Position numbers and translations under genes: made by a program. Below the pieces are notes generated by a model. The model was given only the letters and a program-made list of their open reading frames with translations. It was not told the origin of the DNA and did no database searches. 34,396 nucleotides of DNA from a virus. The stretch is taken from IMG/VR virus record IMGVR_UViG_3300044641_001066, positions 1 to 34,396 of that record. The stretch is one strand, 5' to 3'. How positions within the stretch are numbered: position 1 is the stretch's first letter; each line of letters starts with the position of its first letter. Shown here one piece after another: positions 13,767 to 24,967 of this stretch.

Positions 13767-15748
13767 AAATTAAATTCCTGATCGATGGTATTGATCGTGG
13801 ACAGCCATTAAATCCACAAGACTTTGGCTTTAGTGTTGCAGAAGACGATTCAATAGGATCAAGGATTGTATCATTCAACAATGATCTGTTCTTTGATGGC
13901 ACTGCTTATCAGTACCTATTTAACAAGGTTGTTGATCGCATCTTTTGTCAGTTAGTAAATATCCAAGTTCAGTATCGATGCCAGAACTCTTGGGAGCGAT
14001 TGGTTGATGGCTACATCGTGGTAACTGAAACGGTTTTTGATCTTGATCGATGCCGAGCCAAGACAAAGTTATATGATGAATCATTCTCAACTAAGATAAA
14101 CAACAACAAGGGTATACCGTTCTCTCTTAGTTGTGTAGTAACCAAGAACCTTGAACCAATAGTTCCACCAGCAAGAAGGCTAATAAAGTTGTTTAATCCT
14201 GCCAGCCCAATCGGTACATTTGATGCAGGCAGAGGAGTTACTGTGTTTGATGCGTTGACTCACCTTGTTAGTTGTATGAGCGACAACTTGGTTGACTTTG
14301 CTTCTGACTTCTTTTTTGCAGAGCCTGATGATGCCGATATTGTCTGCATAACCAATGGCAGATCAATAAGAACTAATCAAGACATTGAGATAGTTGTAAC
14401 GTTTGAGCAGCTATACAGGGATCTTCGGGCTAAATATAATTTAGGGATTGGCTTCTTTAAGCAGGCGAACAATAGACCAGTGATAAGGATTGAGCCGATT
14501 GAATACTTTTATCAGTTAAATCAATCAGCATCATTAATCGATCAGCCTGACATTGACTTTAGATTCGACACTCAGAAGATTTATGCAGCGGTGCAATTTG
14601 GTAATAGCCCTGTGCTGGAGGCTAATGAATCAAACTCGCAAAACGATCCACCGCAATCTTTGTCATTCACTCAGACACCATTCAGAGGATTTAGAAAGGA
14701 ACGATTTGGATTTACTGGCGAGTGCAATACATCAAACATCCTAAATGTTGAGGCTTCAGAGATTATCTTTGATACCAATGTGATCGAAGATATTGTTCGT
14801 TTTAATAATGAATCTCACGACCTCGCCAATGTGATCCTGCAAGTGATCTACTTTGGAGGAGTTACGCCATACTTTGAAGCCAAGCGATACGATCCTTATG
14901 CGATTGGTCAGAATGTTTTTAACGGTGGATTCACCAATGATGAGGTATCAGCAAGATGGCTTAATGGTTATCCAAGTTCGTTGTTCTCATTCTTAGAAGA
15001 GCCATTCGATCCTACATTGACCGACTTTAGGGCGCAGATGTTTATAAGTCCTTTGCAGACATTTGAAGCCAACGATACAGACTTTACGACATTCAGCGGA
15101 TTTAATGGCGATTTCATTGAGTTTAATGATGAGGTTACTGATAACGGTAACAACTTCAATCTATCAAGATATGTTGTACCATTCACAGGAGAATATACGT
15201 TTGCGCTTCAGTTAATAAGAGCAGGAATTGGTGGCACTCCAGTTGGCACAGTTGACAACTTTGCAATCATTCGACATCTTGACTCTCAAGAGAATATAAT
15301 CAACAGCTACAATGGTGCATTAGTTTCTCAACTTTATGGATCATTTTCGCTGATAACTGTAACTTGCTCGTTTATTGCAAATCAAGGCGATAGGGTTGTT
15401 GCTGATATGTCGGCAAAGGTTTTCAATGGAACTAATGTTCCGATTGATATTGCTAAAGACTTTGGCGGAGAAGTAACATTCTTTCAGGGATCTGGCATTC
15501 CTTTGATTCCTGAGGAACTTGAAGCGGTTAACACTGAAGATTTTAGGACATTCCTTTATGAGTTCGAAAGACCATTATCAATGAATGAGATCACATCGAT
15601 CATCAATCAAACATCATCACCGATTGAGTTAGGTCGAACAGAGGATTCATTGGCGGTCATTGATGGCTACATTAAAACGATGGAAGTTCAATCTGTTATA
15701 AGGCAAAACGCTAAATTTGTACTAAAGTCTAACGAGATCCTGCGATGA
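13757..15748 (+). CDS. Distal tail / baseplate hub-type protein
   Basis: This 663-aa protein follows directly after the tape measure, the position of distal tail and tail-associated proteins. It starts with a beta-rich domain (IEIKFLIDGIDRGQPLNPQD), has a middle part with 'FEQLYRDLRAKYNLGIGFF' that looks like the hub fold of tail-associated proteins, and a C-terminal beta-sandwich-like region (VPFTGEYTFALQLI) similar to C1q or carbohydrate-binding modules. The role is inferred from place and composition. It overlaps the neighbours by ATGA-type junctions. Confidence 0.75.
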   Translation: MAIEIKFLIDGIDRGQPLNPQDFGFSVAEDDSIGSRIVSFNNDLFFDGTAYQYLFNKVVDRIFCQLVNIQVQYRCQNSWERLVDGYIVVTETVFDLDRCRAKTKLYDESFSTKINNNKGIPFSLSCVVTKNLEPIVPPARRLIKLFNPASPIGTFDAGRGVTVFDALTHLVSCMSDNLVDFASDFFFAEPDDADIVCITNGRSIRTNQDIEIVVTFEQLYRDLRAKYNLGIGFFKQANNRPVIRIEPIEYFYQLNQSASLIDQPDIDFRFDTQKIYAAVQFGNSPVLEANESNSQNDPPQSLSFTQTPFRGFRKERFGFTGECNTSNILNVEASEIIFDTNVIEDIVRFNNESHDLANVILQVIYFGGVTPYFEAKRYDPYAIGQNVFNGGFTNDEVSARWLNGYPSSLFSFLEEPFDPTLTDFRAQMFISPLQTFEANDTDFTTFSGFNGDFIEFNDEVTDNGNNFNLSRYVVPFTGEYTFALQLIRAGIGGTPVGTVDNFAIIRHLDSQENIINSYNGALVSQLYGSFSLITVTCSFIANQGDRVVADMSAKVFNGTNVPIDIAKDFGGEVTFFQGSGIPLIPEELEAVNTEDFRTFLYEFERPLSMNEITSIINQTSSPIELGRTEDSLAVIDGYIKTMEVQSVIRQNAKFVLKSNEILR

Positions 15749-17379
15749 GTTACAACTCCATACCTAACCAACCTATTGTATTCAAGCCATCGGCAGAACT
15801 ATTAAGCGACTGCGGATGCGGAGGCGATGGCTTCAAGCAACTTGTCGATTTTGATGATGAGGTGTTCTTCCAGATCGAATCGACTCCTTGTAATGAAACG
15901 GGAACTTTTGGCGGTGCTATCACTGTGCAGGATTGGGAAGAAAGCGGATCGACAATTATATCAACTGCGCCATCAGAAACAGGCTTCTTTAGTCAGCCAT
16001 TCTATCCACAAGATATGTATGGCGTTATCAGGGTGGTGGTTGAGGTGTCTGACATCATTGGCTCTTTGGTTATTGGCGTATCGGGAGCATCAACCCAAAC
16101 CATCACAGCAGCAGGCACTCATACGCTTTACTTCGATACCATTCACCTACTGACCAACAGCAGCATCACGCTGACAATATCGGGCAACACCTTTGTTGGT
16201 AGCTTTGTATTTATTAGCTTGGTCGGCATTCCAAATGGTGGCTTATTCTTGGGCGTGGTGGATGCTGATGATGTCAATACCATTGTGGCAAGGATTGATC
16301 CAACCATCACGACCATCGATCAATACCTGACTGCTGGCTTCTCGATGGTAGATGTTGCATTATCAGCAGGCTGTTACCGTTTAGCCATTGCCGAGTATTG
16401 CACTAACTTATGCGGTCAATACTTCATCGCTAACCCTTACTTCAATGCCACAAGATCAGGAGTGCCGAGTTGGAGTTCAGTGCTTGGCACAGGAACAACG
16501 AATTGGGTGATCGATCCAAACTTAGCCAGCATTGAATTGGGCAGTGGCGAGAGTGCCTACCTTGAATCGGTTACGGAAGTATGCGAGGGTGTTGAATATT
16601 CTATTGAGATCACTGTGGATGCCATTAGCAACGCTCGTGTGCGATTATCTGTTGATGGCACTCTCTATGGCTCGCCTATCACAACGGCAGGCACTACAAC
16701 GATTGTATTCACTCCGACTTCATCGGGCGAGATTAGTCTATTAGGATCTCAGATAGGAGGCACACCATCGCTGATTGAGATCAGCAAGGTAACACTAAGA
16801 GCAATCTACACATCGGTTAACTATGACCGTTATAGTGATGTGATTGCACTTGGCGAATACAGCGGATGCGATTACTTCAAGTTAGAAGGCTGCAATGGAG
16901 AGAATCAATTTGGCTTTGCTTTCTACGGATCATCATTCCTGCCATCGATTAGGTTGGAAGGTAGAAGATACCAAGCACAATACGATACCGATGCAGATCT
17001 ATTCAGGTACGCATCAGGAAGGTGGCACGCATCGTATGTTGATCGAAGAAAGAAGCACACCTATTTCTTTGGCAGATTGCCTGAGTACGTGCTTGACTTC
17101 TTATCGATCTTGGTGTACTTCGATAACTTATACGTTAACGGTGAAACGCACTTTCCTGCTGAGGCAGACTTCCCTGAGATAGAATACAACGATGCCGATG
17201 ATCTTGGAACTCTAAGCATTGACCTATACCGCAAGACGGGCATAGTTCGTAAGACTGTGTGCGTGGGTGTGGATGCTGACTGCTTGCCATCCATCCTAAA
17301 TTTAGATGAGCCGTTCTTGCTTTACCAAGATGATAATCGAATCATCACTCAGGACAATATCAATTTGTTTCAAGAATAA
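15745..17379 (+). CDS. Tail tip / minor tail protein with carbohydrate-binding-like domains
   Basis: This 544-aa beta-rich protein begins 'SYNSIPNQPIVFKPS' and has CGCGG near residue 26. Two Ser/Thr/Gly-rich beta-sandwich-like regions follow, with periodic patterns such as GSLVIGVSGASTQTITAAGT and 'ARVRLSVDGTLYGSPITTAG', which look like CBM-type modules. The last 150 residues change character (WHASYVDRRKKHTYFFGRLP). It probably decorates the tail tip and may contact the cell surface. It is the last gene before the promoter at 17385, and its start overlaps the upstream stop (ATGA). Confidence 0.68.
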   Translation: MSYNSIPNQPIVFKPSAELLSDCGCGGDGFKQLVDFDDEVFFQIESTPCNETGTFGGAITVQDWEESGSTIISTAPSETGFFSQPFYPQDMYGVIRVVVEVSDIIGSLVIGVSGASTQTITAAGTHTLYFDTIHLLTNSSITLTISGNTFVGSFVFISLVGIPNGGLFLGVVDADDVNTIVARIDPTITTIDQYLTAGFSMVDVALSAGCYRLAIAEYCTNLCGQYFIANPYFNATRSGVPSWSSVLGTGTTNWVIDPNLASIELGSGESAYLESVTEVCEGVEYSIEITVDAISNARVRLSVDGTLYGSPITTAGTTTIVFTPTSSGEISLLGSQIGGTPSLIEISKVTLRAIYTSVNYDRYSDVIALGEYSGCDYFKLEGCNGENQFGFAFYGSSFLPSIRLEGRRYQAQYDTDADLFRYASGRWHASYVDRRKKHTYFFGRLPEYVLDFLSILVYFDNLYVNGETHFPAEADFPEIEYNDADDLGTLSIDLYRKTGIVRKTVCVGVDADCLPSILNLDEPFLLYQDDNRIITQDNINLFQE

Positions 17380-19506: not shown

Positions 19507-19584
19507 ATGAAACCGAACTATTGCAGATCTAAGAGTTGTGGCTCAAACATTATAGATAAACCATCTACTAAAGCAGTGGCGTAA
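19507..19584 (+). CDS. 25-aa micro-gene between methyltransferase and portal
   Basis: ATG at 19507, one base after the methyltransferase stop, opens a 25-codon frame (MKPNYCRSKSCGSNIIDKPS then TKAVA). Its stop TAA shares an A with the portal ATG (TAATG). It contains CxxxxC and is basic. Perfect packing between two genes argues that it is translated, at least to couple ribosomes into the portal gene. Function unknown. Confidence 0.55.
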   Translation: MKPNYCRSKSCGSNIIDKPSTKAVA

Positions 19585-21491
19585 TGGCACTAAGCATCGA
19601 AGAAATTGATAAGATAGTCAACAAGTTTGTCTATCATCACAAGGGCTGGGAGATGGCGGTAGCACGATCACCGATCAACCCGATAACGAAAGAGCGTGTA
19701 GGTGTTACTCAATATCCTGAGTATTGGGATGGCTACAACTATGCTGCGAAAATGTATGACAGCATTTTGCCTCACACTCGCCCTGATATCTATCCAGCGC
19801 ATCTGTTGAGCGTTCGTGCGCCAAACCAAACCGATGCACAGGCTGCATACATTAAAGCGAACTACAAGCCTACAACGCTGTCAGTGTTTGAAGATTTCAA
19901 GGCAACCATTAGCAGGGCTTTCGCAGACCAGAATTGGTCGATCCGTTATTCTGAGGAAGTGAACCCAATCTTTGGGAATGACACCTTTGAGAAGTATGTC
20001 AATGAGGAGATCGAGAAGTTCGGCTCTTTGGAGATGCTGATCAAGACACTGCTACCAACATTAAAGTTGATAGATCCTAATGGCATCATTGCCATCGAGC
20101 CAACTGATGTCGAAACCTACGAAGATGATAATGGTGATGAGGTAATCAGCAATGATCTTATTAAGCCAATGCCTGAGTATTACAACTGTAAAAAGATTGT
20201 AGGGCAGAGATTCGGAGAATACTACCTTGTGATCACTGATGACCATAGTGAGGTTAAGGTAGGCAGCAAGAGCGAGCGCAGTGGTATCGTTCTTGAACTT
20301 TACGACTCAATGGCGATCTACAAGATTTACCAAGTGGGCAAGAAGTCTGATCTGCAATTTAGTGAGCCAGAACTTTACTACCAACACAATCTTGGCTATG
20401 TGCCTTGTCATAAGTTAGAGGGGATGCCTCAGTTGATAGGCAATGAAATTGCTTTTCAATCGCCATTCATTACGGCAGTGCCATTGCTTGATCAGGTGAT
20501 CCTTGATGAGTCTTATCTACAAATCAGCAAGGCAACATCAGCGTTTCCTTTTATGGTTGCGCTGGGTGACATCTGCGAGTTCGTAGATCGGGAGGGTAAC
20601 AAATGCCAAGACGGTCAGATCTTCGATCCTATCAATGGTGGCTATCGCACTTGTGGCAGTTGTTCTGGATCAGGCGTGAAGTCAAGATTCTCACCAACTG
20701 GAATGCTATTGATCAAGCCTAAGACATCATTGAGCGAGGGAGATAGTTCTTTGAGTGGCGAGTACCTAAAGTTTGTATCGCCACCAATGGACACGCTGAA
20801 TTTTCTAAGATTGGAGATCGAGCATCAAATGGCTAAGTCGAGAAGGATCTTGCACCTACCATCATCAGATGAATCAGGAACGATTGGCGAGGCTTCTACT
20901 GCAACGGGATCACTCAACAAGCTAAGATCATTGTATGCGTTCATTAAGCCTGTCTCAGATCAGCTATTCAATCTTTATGAGTTTATGCTTGTAACAATTG
21001 GCAAGATGAGATATGGTCAGGAGTTCGGAGGTGTTAATCTTGTCTATCCTACATCATTCGACATCAGCACTCCATCAGATTACTTGGCTGTCATCAGCGA
21101 GGGTGTTAAGGCAGGAGTGCCACCATCGATCACATTCTCTAATGTTTACAATTACATCAGAGCGATCCATTACACTGACGAGGAAACATCTGCTGTTTAT
21201 GACTTGATCATCAATGCCGATGAATTGTTATTAATGAGCAGCGCAGACATTGTGGCAAGAATCGCCAATGGCACTGTTGAGCGTTATCAAGATGTGATCC
21301 ATCACTCAGCACCTCAGTTAATAATGGAGTTGATCAGGAACTTCATCCCGACTGAAACGGCTCAGAGATTTATTGACTTGCCGATGAGTGAGCAAGTGGC
21401 AGCACTTAACAGGCTCGCATCAGAAAGGGTGGCGGTTAAGTTAGATCCTATCCAACAAGCACAGCAAGACCTATTGAATGGCATCATTTGA
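19584..21491 (+). CDS. Portal protein with an inserted Cys motif
   Basis: At 635 aa this fits the larger class of siphophage portals. Features are an N-terminal 'EYWDGYNYAAKMYDSILPH' and FEDFKATISRAFADQNW, a central beta-rich clip region, and a helical stem segment 'RLEIEHQMAKSRRILHLPS' followed by GEASTATGSLNKLRSLYAF, the usual long-helix portion. Between about residues 331 and 360 four cysteines (C331, C341, C357, C360) surround 'DGQIFDPINGGYRTCGSC', suggesting a zinc-binding insertion. Its start is coupled to the 25-aa gene and its 3' end overlaps the head morphogenesis gene by 14 bases, the usual order portal then MuF-type protein. Confidence 0.85.
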   Translation: MALSIEEIDKIVNKFVYHHKGWEMAVARSPINPITKERVGVTQYPEYWDGYNYAAKMYDSILPHTRPDIYPAHLLSVRAPNQTDAQAAYIKANYKPTTLSVFEDFKATISRAFADQNWSIRYSEEVNPIFGNDTFEKYVNEEIEKFGSLEMLIKTLLPTLKLIDPNGIIAIEPTDVETYEDDNGDEVISNDLIKPMPEYYNCKKIVGQRFGEYYLVITDDHSEVKVGSKSERSGIVLELYDSMAIYKIYQVGKKSDLQFSEPELYYQHNLGYVPCHKLEGMPQLIGNEIAFQSPFITAVPLLDQVILDESYLQISKATSAFPFMVALGDICEFVDREGNKCQDGQIFDPINGGYRTCGSCSGSGVKSRFSPTGMLLIKPKTSLSEGDSSLSGEYLKFVSPPMDTLNFLRLEIEHQMAKSRRILHLPSSDESGTIGEASTATGSLNKLRSLYAFIKPVSDQLFNLYEFMLVTIGKMRYGQEFGGVNLVYPTSFDISTPSDYLAVISEGVKAGVPPSITFSNVYNYIRAIHYTDEETSAVYDLIINADELLLMSSADIVARIANGTVERYQDVIHHSAPQLIMELIRNFIPTETAQRFIDLPMSEQVAALNRLASERVAVKLDPIQQAQQDLLNGII

Positions 21492-22389
21492 TGAACTTGT
21501 AAGGGCAAAGATCAAACTCTTTGAGCAAGTACCTGAAAGGCTTGCAACGGCAGCTATTAAGACTCAGGCAGAGGCGTGGCGAAAGCTAAAGCCTTTGCTT
21601 GAAGATATGGATGTCGATGCCAATGGTAACATTGAGCAAACTGAAGATAACATCAGGCGCATTGGTTTGATATCGGACGAACTCAAAAAAGTTCTGGCAG
21701 GGGGTGATTATCGCCAAGCCGTTAAAGACTTTTTAGATTCGATTGATAAGGGCGTAGTGCTGACTGATGATATTGCTCGCACTTTTGAATCATCCTTTGA
21801 ACCAACAGAGGCGCAGAAGCAACTACTCCAGATCTCAAAGCAGAACACCATCAACGCATTCTTTGGTAGTGGCTTGGATCAACGATTCACTCAGCCATTC
21901 CTTGAACAATTAACCACCAACATCGCAGCACGTGCGCCACTAAGAGAAGCAGTCAATGCTTTGGAGGGATTGGTGGTAGGTACTGAAGCAAATGATGGCA
22001 GGTTGCTGGCTAATATCAAAACAACAGCCACCACAGCGCAGGCGGTTGCGGATCGTAGCTATTCGGCAGCGGTTAACGCAGAACTTGGGCTTGAATGGTT
22101 TGAATATCTTGGAGGCGAGATTGACACCACACGACCATTCTGCGAACATCGGGAAGGTGGTATTTATCACAGAGGCGAGATCGAGGCTTGGGGCAATGGC
22201 AAAAATAGTGCAGGGATCAACGATATCAGAGATGGCAGTTGGGCAGGCAGGATCGATGGCACAGATAGCAAGTCAATCTTCACCTTTGTTGGTGGTTGGA
22301 ATTGCAGACACTACCTGATCCCGATTCCTGATCGTAAAGTTCCCGAATCAGTAAAGGCAAGGGCAAGGGCTGAAGGCTTTATAGATTGA
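21478..22389 (+). CDS. Head morphogenesis protein (MuF/SPP1 gp7-like)
   Basis: This 303-aa protein is helical over the first two thirds, then has the typical MuF C-terminal motif: 'EWFEYLGGEIDTTRPFCEHR' with GGIYHRGEIEAW, and NCRHYLIPI near the end. Those Cys, His and Arg positions are the family hallmark. It is a minor capsid protein injected or bound near the portal, made directly after the portal as in most siphophages. The start is inside the portal gene by 14 bases. Confidence 0.88.
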   Translation: MASFDELVRAKIKLFEQVPERLATAAIKTQAEAWRKLKPLLEDMDVDANGNIEQTEDNIRRIGLISDELKKVLAGGDYRQAVKDFLDSIDKGVVLTDDIARTFESSFEPTEAQKQLLQISKQNTINAFFGSGLDQRFTQPFLEQLTTNIAARAPLREAVNALEGLVVGTEANDGRLLANIKTTATTAQAVADRSYSAAVNAELGLEWFEYLGGEIDTTRPFCEHREGGIYHRGEIEAWGNGKNSAGINDIRDGSWAGRIDGTDSKSIFTFVGGWNCRHYLIPIPDRKVPESVKARARAEGFID

Positions 22390-22421: not shown

Positions 22422-22628
22422 ATGAAAATAATGATCACTGCCGAAGGTAAGATTATCAACGCATCTGATGTGTTGGCTGATCACTTGATTAAGAAAGGCG
22501 GTAGAGAGTTAAAACTGCAAACAATTAAAACACCTAATATTTATGGCAATGAAACCAGAGGAGGCGATGGAATTAGTGAACTTCCTAAACCTAAGCGAAG
22601 CAGAAAGCCTCGAAGAAGCGAAGGATAA
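22422..22628 (+). CDS. Small head-region protein with a basic tail, overlapping the scaffold gene
   Basis: This 68-aa protein begins MKIMITAEGKIINASDVLAD and ends with a Lys/Arg-rich 'SELPKPKRSRKPRRSEG'. Such short proteins with an extended basic tail are common before scaffold or capsid genes in Bacteroidota phages, where they may bind DNA or be connector subunits. It overlaps the scaffold reading frame by 86 bases in another frame, an unusually long overlap for this genome. It has its own promoter with almost no leader. Confidence 0.6.
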   Translation: MKIMITAEGKIINASDVLADHLIKKGGRELKLQTIKTPNIYGNETRGGDGISELPKPKRSRKPRRSEG

Positions 22629-23364
22629 ATTTCAAGACCAATGGGTTAACTCAAAGGAATTGAATGATAAGATCGGCAAGATCAACGGCACGATCCATCA
22701 GGTTGCTAAAAGAGCATTCGAGCCTTTCGGAGTTACACTAACCGAAGAAGATTTTAAGGATAAGAAAGCACAGGATGTGATCCGCTTGGCAGCAGATCGG
22801 GCAAGAGAGAACTATGAGAAGCAGCAAGAGGAATGGCAGCAACGGGCTTCTAAGGAAGGATCTGATGAGTTGGTGAAGGAATGGGAGAAGAAACACAAGC
22901 TACTTGAAAAGAAGTTGACCGATGTAGACAATGCCAGACAAGAGGCAATGGCGCAGTTTGAGCAATTCAAGTTAAAGACGGCAGATGATAACAAGCAGAG
23001 CAAGATCAATATGACTTTTGAGCGTGAGTTATCTGCCATCAAACTTGATCCTACTGTCAATGAATTTACGATCAAAGGATTCAAGGCAAGCATTGGAGAG
23101 AAGTATGCCATCGACTTAGAGGACGATGGTAGCTTCATCGTTAAAGACAAGGCAAGTGGTGAGCGATTGAAAAGCAAGGACAAGGCAGGATCATTCCTTA
23201 ACTTATCTGATGTTTTAATTCAGGAGGCATCAGCAGCAGGCATTGTGATGAAGAACCCAACGGCAGGGCAGCGAATGACAAAGCAAGGCGCATTCGTGCC
23301 AAGTCTTGAGAGTTCTGACAACAAGAAGATGAAAGGTATCAATCCAAGATTCTTTACAAAATAA
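22543..23364 (+). CDS. Capsid scaffolding protein
   Basis: This 273-aa protein is highly charged and helical. It has a long coiled-coil stretch in the middle (about residues 80-150, with Lys/Glu/Gln heptads such as EKKHKLLEKKLTDVDNARQ) and a short C-terminal segment 'KMKGINPRFFTK'. It precedes the major capsid gene, the standard place for scaffold. ATG at 22543 or 22549 is possible. It probably guides prohead assembly and is removed or released before packaging. Confidence 0.8.
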   Translation: MAMKPEEAMELVNFLNLSEAESLEEAKDKFQDQWVNSKELNDKIGKINGTIHQVAKRAFEPFGVTLTEEDFKDKKAQDVIRLAADRARENYEKQQEEWQQRASKEGSDELVKEWEKKHKLLEKKLTDVDNARQEAMAQFEQFKLKTADDNKQSKINMTFERELSAIKLDPTVNEFTIKGFKASIGEKYAIDLEDDGSFIVKDKASGERLKSKDKAGSFLNLSDVLIQEASAAGIVMKNPTAGQRMTKQGAFVPSLESSDNKKMKGINPRFFTK

Positions 23365-23366
23365 CT

Positions 23367-23639
23367 ATGCCACTATACGAAGGTTTCAATGTTACTGCTT
23401 CAGACCGAGAGGGCAAGAAGTATAAGGCTGTTGCCGAAGATGGCACAGAGATTCACTTCGGGGCTTCAGGTTATCGCATCAATCCTGGCACTGATGCTGG
23501 CAATAATTACTGTGCAAGAAGCAGTGGCATTCCTTCGCCTCGTGGATCTGCTAATTGGTGGGCGAGGCAGCTATGGAGTTGCGAAGGCAAACGGTCAGTA
23601 AGCGACAAGCCATTTTTTGGCAAGATAGATTTACCATAA
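23367..23639 (+). CDS. Small head-region protein (DUF5872/DUF5754-like in style)
   Basis: This 90-aa protein contains KYKAVAEDGTEIHFGASGYR followed by a motif rich in Gly/Asn/Cys and ends in NWWARQLWSCEGKRSV. The order 'VHFGAxGY ... ARxxGI ... NxWARxLWS' matches, from memory, small phage or plant-virus-like proteins of the DUF5754/DUF5872 group. The role is unknown; its location between scaffold and capsid suggests a capsid accessory. A terminator follows it. Confidence 0.62.
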   Translation: MPLYEGFNVTASDREGKKYKAVAEDGTEIHFGASGYRINPGTDAGNNYCARSSGIPSPRGSANWWARQLWSCEGKRSVSDKPFFGKIDLP

Positions 23640-23694: not shown

Positions 23695-23714
23695 TAAAAG
23701 ATTCACTATCTTTG
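23686..23714 (+). promoter_or_regulatory. Promoter TTTG-N17-TATCTTTG for the major capsid gene
   Basis: TTTG at 23686-23689, within the T-rich end of the terminator, and TATCTTTG at 23707-23714 are 17 bases apart. This is the same spacing as the major tail promoter. The resulting leader is about 90 bases and highly structured. Confidence 0.8.
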
Positions 23715-23725
23715 CGGTACTATGA

Positions 23726-23810
23726 TGATGTAGTGTAGCCACAACTTAACGGGGCAAAGTAGGCGCAGCCATCAGCCTGACAATCGGTGGTAATTCTACA
23801 AACTACATCA
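23726..23810 (+). promoter_or_regulatory. Long closed stem in the capsid mRNA leader
   Basis: TGATGTAGT (23726-23734) pairs perfectly with ACTACATCA (23802-23810), leaving only two bases before the ATG at 23813. Inside it GTAG (23735-23738 region) can pair with CTAC (23795-23799 region), CCAC with GTGG (23787-23790 region), and AGGC (23761-23764) with GCCT (23775-23778). The start codon therefore sits at the foot of a closed domain. It may protect the mRNA or position the ribosome. Confidence 0.68.
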
Positions 23811-23812
23811 CT

Positions 23813-24859
23813 ATGTCAATTTCACGTATTCTTTCGGAATGCCCTAATGTTCAGATGTCATTATCTGAACTATTTATCGAGGTAGGTCAGCGTGAGCAAC
23901 TTCCTTTCTTGGAGTTCTTGCTTTCACCTGAAAACTCAAAACTAATCCGCACAGAGGTTTCTTCTGGAAACGGTAAATTAAAAACAGTTCAAGCACGTTG
24001 GATTCAGCGTTTGCCTGAAACAGAAGTAGAGGAGGGTGCTGACATCCTTACTTGTACCTCAACAAATGTGTACGGTGATTCAACAACTACTTACACAGTA
24101 GATACTGATGATACCTACACAGCATCTCAACTTATCAATGCTGCTGACATTGCTCGCCATTGCCAAGAGAACAGCCGTTACGTTCTTGAATCAATTATGC
24201 GATTGATGGATGTTATTGATCGCAAGGTGGCTTCTGCTGCTGCGGTTCAAGCAGTTGCTAACATTGGTAATTGGGGAACTGAAGTAGAAGGCTTCTACAC
24301 TGTATCAGGTGATTGCTTACGCATTGCTACTCGTCAGACTGGCGGTCAAGCATTGAATGAGTTTGCACTTGCTGACATCCTTCAAGCAACTCGTATGGCT
24401 AACTACCCTGCTGCGCCTGTGGTATTTGGTGGTGCTGAGATGCAGCGTTATGCTAATGCTGTGCAAGCAGGATGCTGCACGCAGTTCGGCATTGACTTGT
24501 TGGCTATTAGCCAGCAGAATGGATTTGGCTTTGCTTACGATGCTCGTTTAGCAACTGCATTAGGTTCTCAGTTAAAGAACTTGGCTACAACTGCTGGAGC
24601 GATCCAATGGTTGTCGTTTAATCTTGCTGAGTGGAATGCAGGTATTACTCCTGCTGCTGGTGCTAACTACACCAAGACTCAGGTATTCACTCCTGCTGGT
24701 GTGCCAGTTGACTTGACGATGAAGGATGACTGCGGTAACTTGTCTATTGTAATGACTACAACAGGCAAGATCGTAACGCTTCCAACTGACATCTACGAAG
24801 CATCTGATAAGTATGCTGGTGTGAACTATGTTAACTGTGTTCAGATTGTAAACCCGTAG
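23813..24859 (+). CDS. Major capsid protein (short form)
   Basis: This 348-aa protein lies behind a strong promoter and structured leader and before an intrinsic terminator, so it is expressed as its own transcript. It begins with a helical arm (SISRILSECPNVQMSLSELF), has a segment with 'ADIARHCQENSRYVLESIMR' like the long helix of capsid folds, and a beta-rich C-terminal half ending in 'CVQIVNP'. Size, expression signals and order after scaffold support the call. Two tandem in-frame stops (TAG TAG) end this form, but the gene carries a -1 frameshift signal at its 3' end that would add 27 residues. Confidence 0.85.
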   Translation: MSISRILSECPNVQMSLSELFIEVGQREQLPFLEFLLSPENSKLIRTEVSSGNGKLKTVQARWIQRLPETEVEEGADILTCTSTNVYGDSTTTYTVDTDDTYTASQLINAADIARHCQENSRYVLESIMRLMDVIDRKVASAAAVQAVANIGNWGTEVEGFYTVSGDCLRIATRQTGGQALNEFALADILQATRMANYPAAPVVFGGAEMQRYANAVQAGCCTQFGIDLLAISQQNGFGFAYDARLATALGSQLKNLATTAGAIQWLSFNLAEWNAGITPAAGANYTKTQVFTPAGVPVDLTMKDDCGNLSIVMTTTGKIVTLPTDIYEASDKYAGVNYVNCVQIVNP

Positions 24860-24907
24860 TAGGGTTGGCAGACTTGATCTCGCAAGATGATCTTGAACTG
24901 TTAACCC
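24850..24907 (+). promoter_or_regulatory. Programmed -1 frameshift signal at the capsid stop codon
   Basis: The heptamer A AAC CCG (24850-24856) follows X XXY YYZ in the capsid frame, immediately before TAG. A 5-base spacer (TAGTA) leads to a 10-bp stem: GGGTTGGCAG (24862-24871) with CTGTTAACCC (24898-24907), with two G-U pairs. An inner hairpin CAAGA/TCTTG (24883-24895) lies in its loop. These are the three parts of a classical -1 site. Confidence 0.72.
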
Positions 24908-24939
24908 AAGACGGAATTGATAATCTGATAACCGAATAA
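24856..24939 (+). CDS. 27-residue -1 frame extension of the capsid protein
   Basis: After a -1 shift on AAC CCG the frame continues from GTA at 24856 for 27 codons and stops with TAA at 24937-24939. The residues run VVGLADLISQDDLELLTQDG then IDNLITE, acidic and similar in style to the LxTQDGDxLITE tails seen on other phage structural proteins. The terminator begins two bases after this stop. There is no ATG for independent initiation; TTG at 24865 is the only weak alternative. Confidence 0.6.
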   Translation, partial: VVGLADLISQDDLELLTQDGIDNLITE

Positions 24940-24940
24940 G

Positions 24941-24967
24941 AGGGGGGCTTAGTGCCTCCCTTTTTTT
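24941..24967 (+). terminator. Intrinsic terminator after the capsid gene
   Basis: AGGGGGGC (24941-24948) pairs with GCCTCCCT (24954-24961), eight pairs with one G-U, around TTAGT, followed by a seven-T tract. It closes the capsid transcript. Confidence 0.92.

Follow-up and report, generated by a model that had tools for sequence, protein, structure and literature searches.

The window (i.e. the whole 34,396-nucleotide stretch of viral DNA that was analysed, IMG/VR record IMGVR_UViG_3300044641_001066) contains a portal-like gene followed, after four further retained open reading frames (ORFs), by an ORF of 348 codons which probably encodes the major capsid protein. This assignment is our judgement from gene order and not a computed value; the order of portal-like gene and downstream ORF fits a major capsid gene, and the ORF has promoter-like and terminator-like signals of its own. 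The features of the locus are listed in Table 1.

Table 1. Positions in the window of the presumed capsid gene, its putative frameshift signal and associated features.
Feature	Position	Strand	Remarks
In-frame C-terminal repeat tail of the 544-aa protein (15745-17379)	17314-17376	+	FLLYQDDNRIITQDNINLFQE; resembles the -1 frame extension
Portal-like gene	19584-21491		phrog_7376, E 4.2e-20; upstream of the presumed capsid ORF
ORF	21478-22389		Sub-threshold Phage_min_cap2 match, E 0.013, 14.9 bits (cut-off 26.3)
ORF	22422-22628		No useful matches where searched
ORF	22543-23364		No useful matches where searched
ORF	23367-23639		No useful matches where searched
Structured 5' leader of the capsid mRNA, possible H-type pseudoknot	23714-23812	+	Feature separate from the frameshift
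Presumed major capsid protein ORF	23813-24859	+	348 aa; 0-frame product ends ...IVNP*
Slip site A_AAC_CCG	24850-24856	+	X_XXY_YYZ with Y = C; phase correct for the 0 frame
Spacer	24857-24861	+	5 nt; starts with the 0-frame stop TAG (24857-24859)
-1 frame extension	24856-24939	+	27 codons (24856-24936) and TAA (24937-24939); VVGLADLISQDDLELLTQDGIDNLITE
5' arm of the putative stimulatory stem	24862-24871	+	GGGTTGGCAG
3' arm of the putative stimulatory stem	24898-24907	+	CTGTTAACCC
Intrinsic-terminator-like hairpin and T run	24942-24967	+	3' of the extension; read from the sequence

The presumed capsid protein had no relative in INPHARED (tblastn) and no usable match in PHROGs, Pfam or NCBIfam, where a lax limit yielded weak and unrelated names (e.g. 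Holliday junction resolvase, E 0.022). A profile search of the PDB returned nitric oxide synthase alone (E 0.66), and a profile comparison with the capsid protein of phage 11b gave a probability of 0.2. Two AlphaFold models had pLDDT values of 32.1 and 35.5; a Foldseek search with the latter model found nothing significant, with a best E of 0.054 (phytochromes) and a capsid chain of phage XM1 at rank 46 (E 0.6) that was not counted as evidence. The portal-like protein was likewise without a relative in INPHARED, and none of 113 pattern matches in genome contigs was confirmed as a prophage relative.

The leader of the presumed capsid gene has a closing stem (23728-23734 with 23802-23808) that adjoins the start codon, together with an internal hairpin. 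The loop of a TAGGC..GCCT hairpin pairs downstream, forming the possible H-type pseudoknot. Loop pairing of 4-7 bases was present in 83/83 distinct leaders through 30 different pairings, with a mean score of 7.9 as compared to 4.5 for re-dealt partners (sd 0.23, maximum 5.05). For one sequence class (alignment A6; 45 of 95 distinct leaders aligned, 39 distinct), pairing in the three helices was 84.9%, and 97 cells had changed on both sides (0/500 shuffles). The number of pairs with both-sided change was not unusual (79/500 shuffles), both-sided change was absent from the closing stem, and pairing in the pseudoknot helix was 75.2%. No match to the leader was obtained in Rfam, and it is possibly a new cis-regulatory RNA family.

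The gene end in the window and in its relatives

The last codons of the presumed capsid ORF are GTA AAC CCG TAG. The earlier note had proposed a programmed -1 frameshift at this point from a heptamer, a 5-nt spacer, a 10-bp stem and a -1 frame open for 27 codons with its stop two bases before a terminator; every coordinate was confirmed, the terminator-like hairpin starting two bases past the TAA of the extension. The stem has 10 pairs of which two are G-U, and the RNA of 24850-24950 folded with -28.4 kcal/mol (z -2.45; 3/200 shuffles as good). In-frame X XXY YYZ motifs occurred at 28 of 10598 codon positions across the window, and two ORFs end on such a motif among the 43 that were kept of 93 listed. 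Judged from the window sequence alone, the frameshift signal is suggestive only, because a -1 frame is open for 27 codons in ~18% of shuffled window sequences and because 2/43 ORFs end on a heptamer. The second of these ORFs (62-580) has CCC_TTT_T before its TAA, a heptamer that is probably due to chance since the -1 frame closes after two codons.

Relatives were collected from three IMG/VR scans (the best 80 of 207, 207 and 216, with many contigs shared between scans) and from a fourth scan with a 544-aa protein of the window as query (49 loci). The sample from the first three scans thus covers the best-scoring, nearer members. The resulting pool comprised 285 sequences (i.e. the window and 284 loci) and the end of the capsid gene was visible in 248, of which three with too little flank (L167, L206 and L061) were dropped before counting. 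Merging of identical 730-nt stretches left 116 distinct sequences, the window included. Of these, 90 have a -1 extension, recognisably of a single kind, and 26 have none; the length of the extension was 27 codons in 73 sequences and 26 codons in 17. With the relatives added, the signal is well above chance, as judged from the heptamer, the covarying stem, the constraint on the coding frame and the loss of site and extension together.

A refutation test set beforehand in the earlier note, that related capsid genes might lack the heptamer or the open -1 frame, was run on these sequences. AAACCC[GA] was found at the gene end in 86/90 extension-bearing sequences and in 2/26 extension-free sequences (L028 and L059), the other 24 lacking it. 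A stop codon directly follows in 80 of the 86 and one sense codon (TCA or GCA) precedes a TAG in the remaining six. C_CC[G/A] was kept in 90/90 extension-bearing sequences, with the 0-frame stop directly next in 84 and one sense codon later in six. In all 86, the 0-frame codon that precedes AAC has A as its third base (GTA in 67, GCA in 19), Asn is encoded by AAC throughout and Pro by either CCG or CCA; extension-free sequences also have GTT, GTG, AAT and CCT. These fixed choices of slip-site codons are silent in the 0 frame.

The proposed XXXYYYZ heptamer thus holds for the window and for 86/90 sequences and is not universal, as four have only C_CCG next to the stop. These exceptions are CGTCCCG (two), TGTCCCG (one) and GGCCCCG (one, L253), with TAA next in each; L253 additionally has an intact AAACCCG two codons upstream. 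In L119, L120 and L133 a -1 frame stop lies two codons upstream (TAA YGT CCC G), so that a shift is confined to the last two sense codons. Stem pairing was retained in these three sequences and L253 matched the covariance model of the signal. With GTC_CCG or GCC_CCG adjoining the stop and the extension retained, all four represent natural variants suited to testing the slip mechanism.

Joint changes of site and extension were assessed on a tree that included 113 sequences of the gene, trimmed of their last 30 bases, and omitted three sequences without an N-terminus (L023, L274 and L283). Gains and losses of the extension numbered at least 11 on the best tree, or at least 7 when only supported branches were counted. 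The heptamer tracked the extension in a mean of 5.3 of 7 independent pairs (range 4-6), with no difference in 1.7 and the opposite in none; a sign test over these pairs was borderline (median P 0.0625, range 0.031-0.125). CCC[GA] tracked the extension in 5.8/7 pairs (median P 0.031, range 0.031-0.0625). Joint change of this kind would also result from recombination of gene ends.

Structure and coding constraint downstream of the putative slip site

The putative stem was borne out in the relatives, where its pairs covary. In an alignment of the 27-codon group (A2; 52 distinct sequences from 69 of the 73, made before the third scan for relatives), 98.3% of 520 cells were standard pairs and both-sided changes affected six of the ten pairs (54 cells). 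None of 500 shuffles reached the observed values on four of five measures, with 41/500 doing so for the number of further pair types, and versions of the stem slid along the alignment were 23.5-46% paired. One pair is G-C in 37 sequences and C-G in 15, and several pairs were rebuilt in L032 and L048. RNAalifold independently recovered the same 10-bp stem. It also added a possible lower stem between CCGU (24854-24857), which overlaps the slip site, and ACGG (24911-24914) 3' of the main stem, corresponding to alignment columns 5-8 with 62-65; this lower stem may represent an alternative structure in competition with the ribosome.

A related stem occurs in the 26-codon group, displaced by one base and interrupted by a bulge (12 distinct sequences from 16/17). 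The distance from site to stem is 5 nt in the 27-codon group and 6 nt in the 26-codon group, both inside the range of 5-9 nt given for the most studied spacers (PMC5009743). A covariance model of the 27-codon signal matched 12/12 loci of the 26-codon group given to it (E 8e-5 to 0.69). At E up to 1 it matched 0/26 extension-free loci. This comparison is not one of structure alone because the model also holds sequence.

Selection on the extension was examined by pN/pS. Values in the -1 frame were 0.295 for the 27-codon group (55 distinct sequences), as compared to 0.90 and 1.64 in the other frames, and 0.359 for the 26-codon group (13 distinct), as compared to 0.81 and 1.53. Restricting the comparison to the part 3' of the stem gave 0.27 and 0.19, respectively. 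These patterns of substitution indicate that the -1 frame is under protein-level selection. The extension had also been described as acidic, and an excess of 3 to 7 acidic over basic residues was found in all 90 sequences, 88 of which have neither K nor R. It consists of two to three repeats of the [LI][LI][ST][QE] type (e.g. LLSQADEDLLTQDGLDNLTTQ or LLSEGSDDLLSEGSDNLLTQ). A search of INPHARED with the extension alone gave no match, a 27-residue query having little power.

A similar tail ends the 544-aa protein of the window, in this case in frame. When the window extension was compared with the last 30 residues of the 43 ORFs, this C-terminus scored best (45, next 29) and 0/2000 shuffles scored as high. 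Three other types of extension resembled it more weakly (2/2000, 11/2000 and, for the LLSE type, 276/2000, i.e. no match). The tail of the 544-aa protein was seen by eye in the 26 loci inspected of the 49, and in 19/19 records in which the protein was found (23 searched, four without a match). An association of this tail with the coming and going of the capsid extension was rejected, as it was present by eye in 13/13 extension-free and 6/6 extension-bearing records. From this resemblance, two proteins of the phage have similar acidic repeat ends, which may stem from common descent or from convergence. The capsid extension may be displayed on the particle surface. No relative of the 544-aa protein was found in INPHARED; its match to the Ig-like Peptidase_C25_C domain is below threshold (E 9.3e-5, 22.6 bits, cut-off 25).

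Interpretation of the gene end

The reading that we favour, with a probability of about 0.92 on comparative grounds, is a programmed -1 frameshift where the presumed major capsid gene ends. It draws on the site, the spacer, the covarying stem, the coding constraint in the -1 frame, the kept 0-frame stop and the repeated joint change of site and extension, all of which were seen in the sequence and its comparison with the relatives. The majority of ribosomes would terminate at the TAG after ...AAC CCG and release the 348-aa protein. Some would be paused by the stem-loop five bases on, and perhaps also by the stop codon, allowing the tRNAs on AAC and CCG to move back by one base and pair with AAA and CCC. 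Slipped ribosomes would then read 27 further codons to yield an isoform of 375 aa whose C-terminal tail is acidic and repeat-like; this isoform is presumably a minor form of the capsid protein. We infer both the occurrence and the frequency of slippage at A_AAC_CCG, and the long form would be incorporated in virions.

A related mechanism would involve a single tRNA, with peptidyl-tRNA(Pro) moving from CCG or CCA to CCC during the time that the A site is occupied by the stop codon, and with AAA merely helping; the ratio of isoforms would therefore depend on the speed of termination. This version is possible, if doubtful. The universal C_CC[GA] and the adjoining stop in 84/90 sequences agree with it, as do the four sequences that have NNC_CCG TAA and lack a tandem heptamer beside the stop, three of them (L119, L120 and L133) being pinned to the codons beside it. 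However, 86/90 sequences hold AAA_AAC despite a free synonymous choice, for which a single slip has no need, six have a sense codon ahead of the stop, and L253 may use its intact upstream heptamer. A still bolder proposal, which we consider unlikely, is a stop-proximal shift driven mainly by peptidyl-tRNA(Pro) and boosted by the stem, such that the share of the long form would report release-factor activity late in infection. If this were true, a stop-proximal single-tRNA shift and a leader pseudoknot would place the capsid mRNA under two RNA controls.

Explanations without a frameshift fare less well. Expression of the extension as a separate small ORF, by re-initiation or stop-start coupling and without fusion, might be suggested by the ATG, GTG or TTG that some sequences have near the beginning of the -1 frame, but no start position is common to all 90, the commonest (position 15) falls inside the repeat, the -1 frame opens only two codons upstream of the site in three sequences and such expression would not account for the link to the slip site; we regard this as very improbable. 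Little more can be said for the stem as an mRNA-stability or terminator-related element with the open -1 frame as its by-product. The position of the stem just before the terminator and its conservation by pairing would suit such an element, which is nevertheless highly improbable given the low pN/pS past the stem (0.27 and 0.19) and the synonymous slip-site bases fixed in 86/90 sequences. In a single genome, a one-base indel from sequencing error or recent mutation that severed an in-frame tail would look identical to a frameshift site; this explanation was refuted by the relatives and has a negligible probability, as an in-frame tail occurs in 0/116 sequences, the ends of all 116 lie no more than a few codons apart and the stop is retained even where it has moved by one codon. 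Readthrough of the TAG was rejected because further stops follow immediately in the 0 frame, with a mean of 5.1 zero-frame stops per 27-codon stretch (the first included) and 3.7 in the 26-codon group. Transcriptional slippage was also rejected, AAACCC not being a homopolymer run.

Known capsid frameshifts and significance for the lineage

The T7 10B protein is a minor form of the capsid protein. A predicted -1 shift near the end of a capsid gene, leading to a second form with a C-terminal extension, likens the present locus to T7 10A/10B, T3, A118 and A500. No sequence relationship to these systems was found, and in the present lineage slippage would take place on A_AAC_CC[G/A] immediately ahead of the stop. 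The extension of T3 is an Ig-like domain; that of the present lineage is acidic and repeat-like. A length of 26-27 residues is far too short for an Ig fold, and examination of the extension for such a domain found [LI][LI][ST][QE]-type repeats instead.

Of the two precedents cited in the earlier note, T7 holds and Listeria phage PSA does not. Capsid frameshifts of the -1 type are named for T3, A118 and A500 and T7 gene 10 is treated among -1 sites (PMC5009743), to which Privateer/phiEco32 can be added (PMC7881722). PSA resembles the present locus in that a proline codon at the 3' end of its capsid gene is the place of the shift and an RNA structure lies 3' of it, but is no direct precedent because its shift is +1 with a pseudoknot (PMC5009743), as opposed to -1 with a stem-loop here. 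Privateer/phiEco32 also has a capsid gene with a predicted heptamer, and a longer minor capsid protein is reported from mass spectrometry of Privateer (PMC7881722); the heptamer in that case is GGGAAAG and no relationship was found. Slip-site limits of Y = A/U and Z = A/U/C are quoted in a further source, whose SEA-PHAGES set shows none such (PMC10885494). These letter limits are broken in the present lineage, with Y = C in 90/90 and Z = G in 74/90 sequences.

No report of this lineage or of this slip site was noticed in the literature covered, outside of which subscription journals largely fall, and a search on capsid frameshifting in Bacteroidetes phages brought up a single halovirus paper. 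As far as searched, the signal is unrelated by sequence to known cases. The new elements comprise the lineage itself, a slip site with proline (CCC) that falls outside the quoted Y = A/U rule, the exceptions that would re-pair on proline only and an acidic repeat tail resembling the C-terminus of another protein.

The host is likely a member of the Bacteroidota. The best-ranked INPHARED match of the terminase was Flavobacterium phage 11b (31% over 60%), and TAnnTTTG, which we take to be the Bacteroidota -7 element, had 26 occurrences on the + strand of the window and 18 on the - strand, as compared to 11 in single-base shuffles.

The capsid-gene frameshifts named in the cited papers concern phages of enterobacteria and Listeria, and the present locus belongs to an uncultured lineage that probably infects Bacteroidota. 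The longer capsid form would be missed by ordinary gene finding. With 90 variants carrying the signal, 26 without it, at least 7 gains or losses, a covarying stem and an unusual proline slip site, this lineage constitutes a natural experiment whose variants make the purpose of the capsid extension and the rules of slippage on Bacteroidota ribosomes testable.
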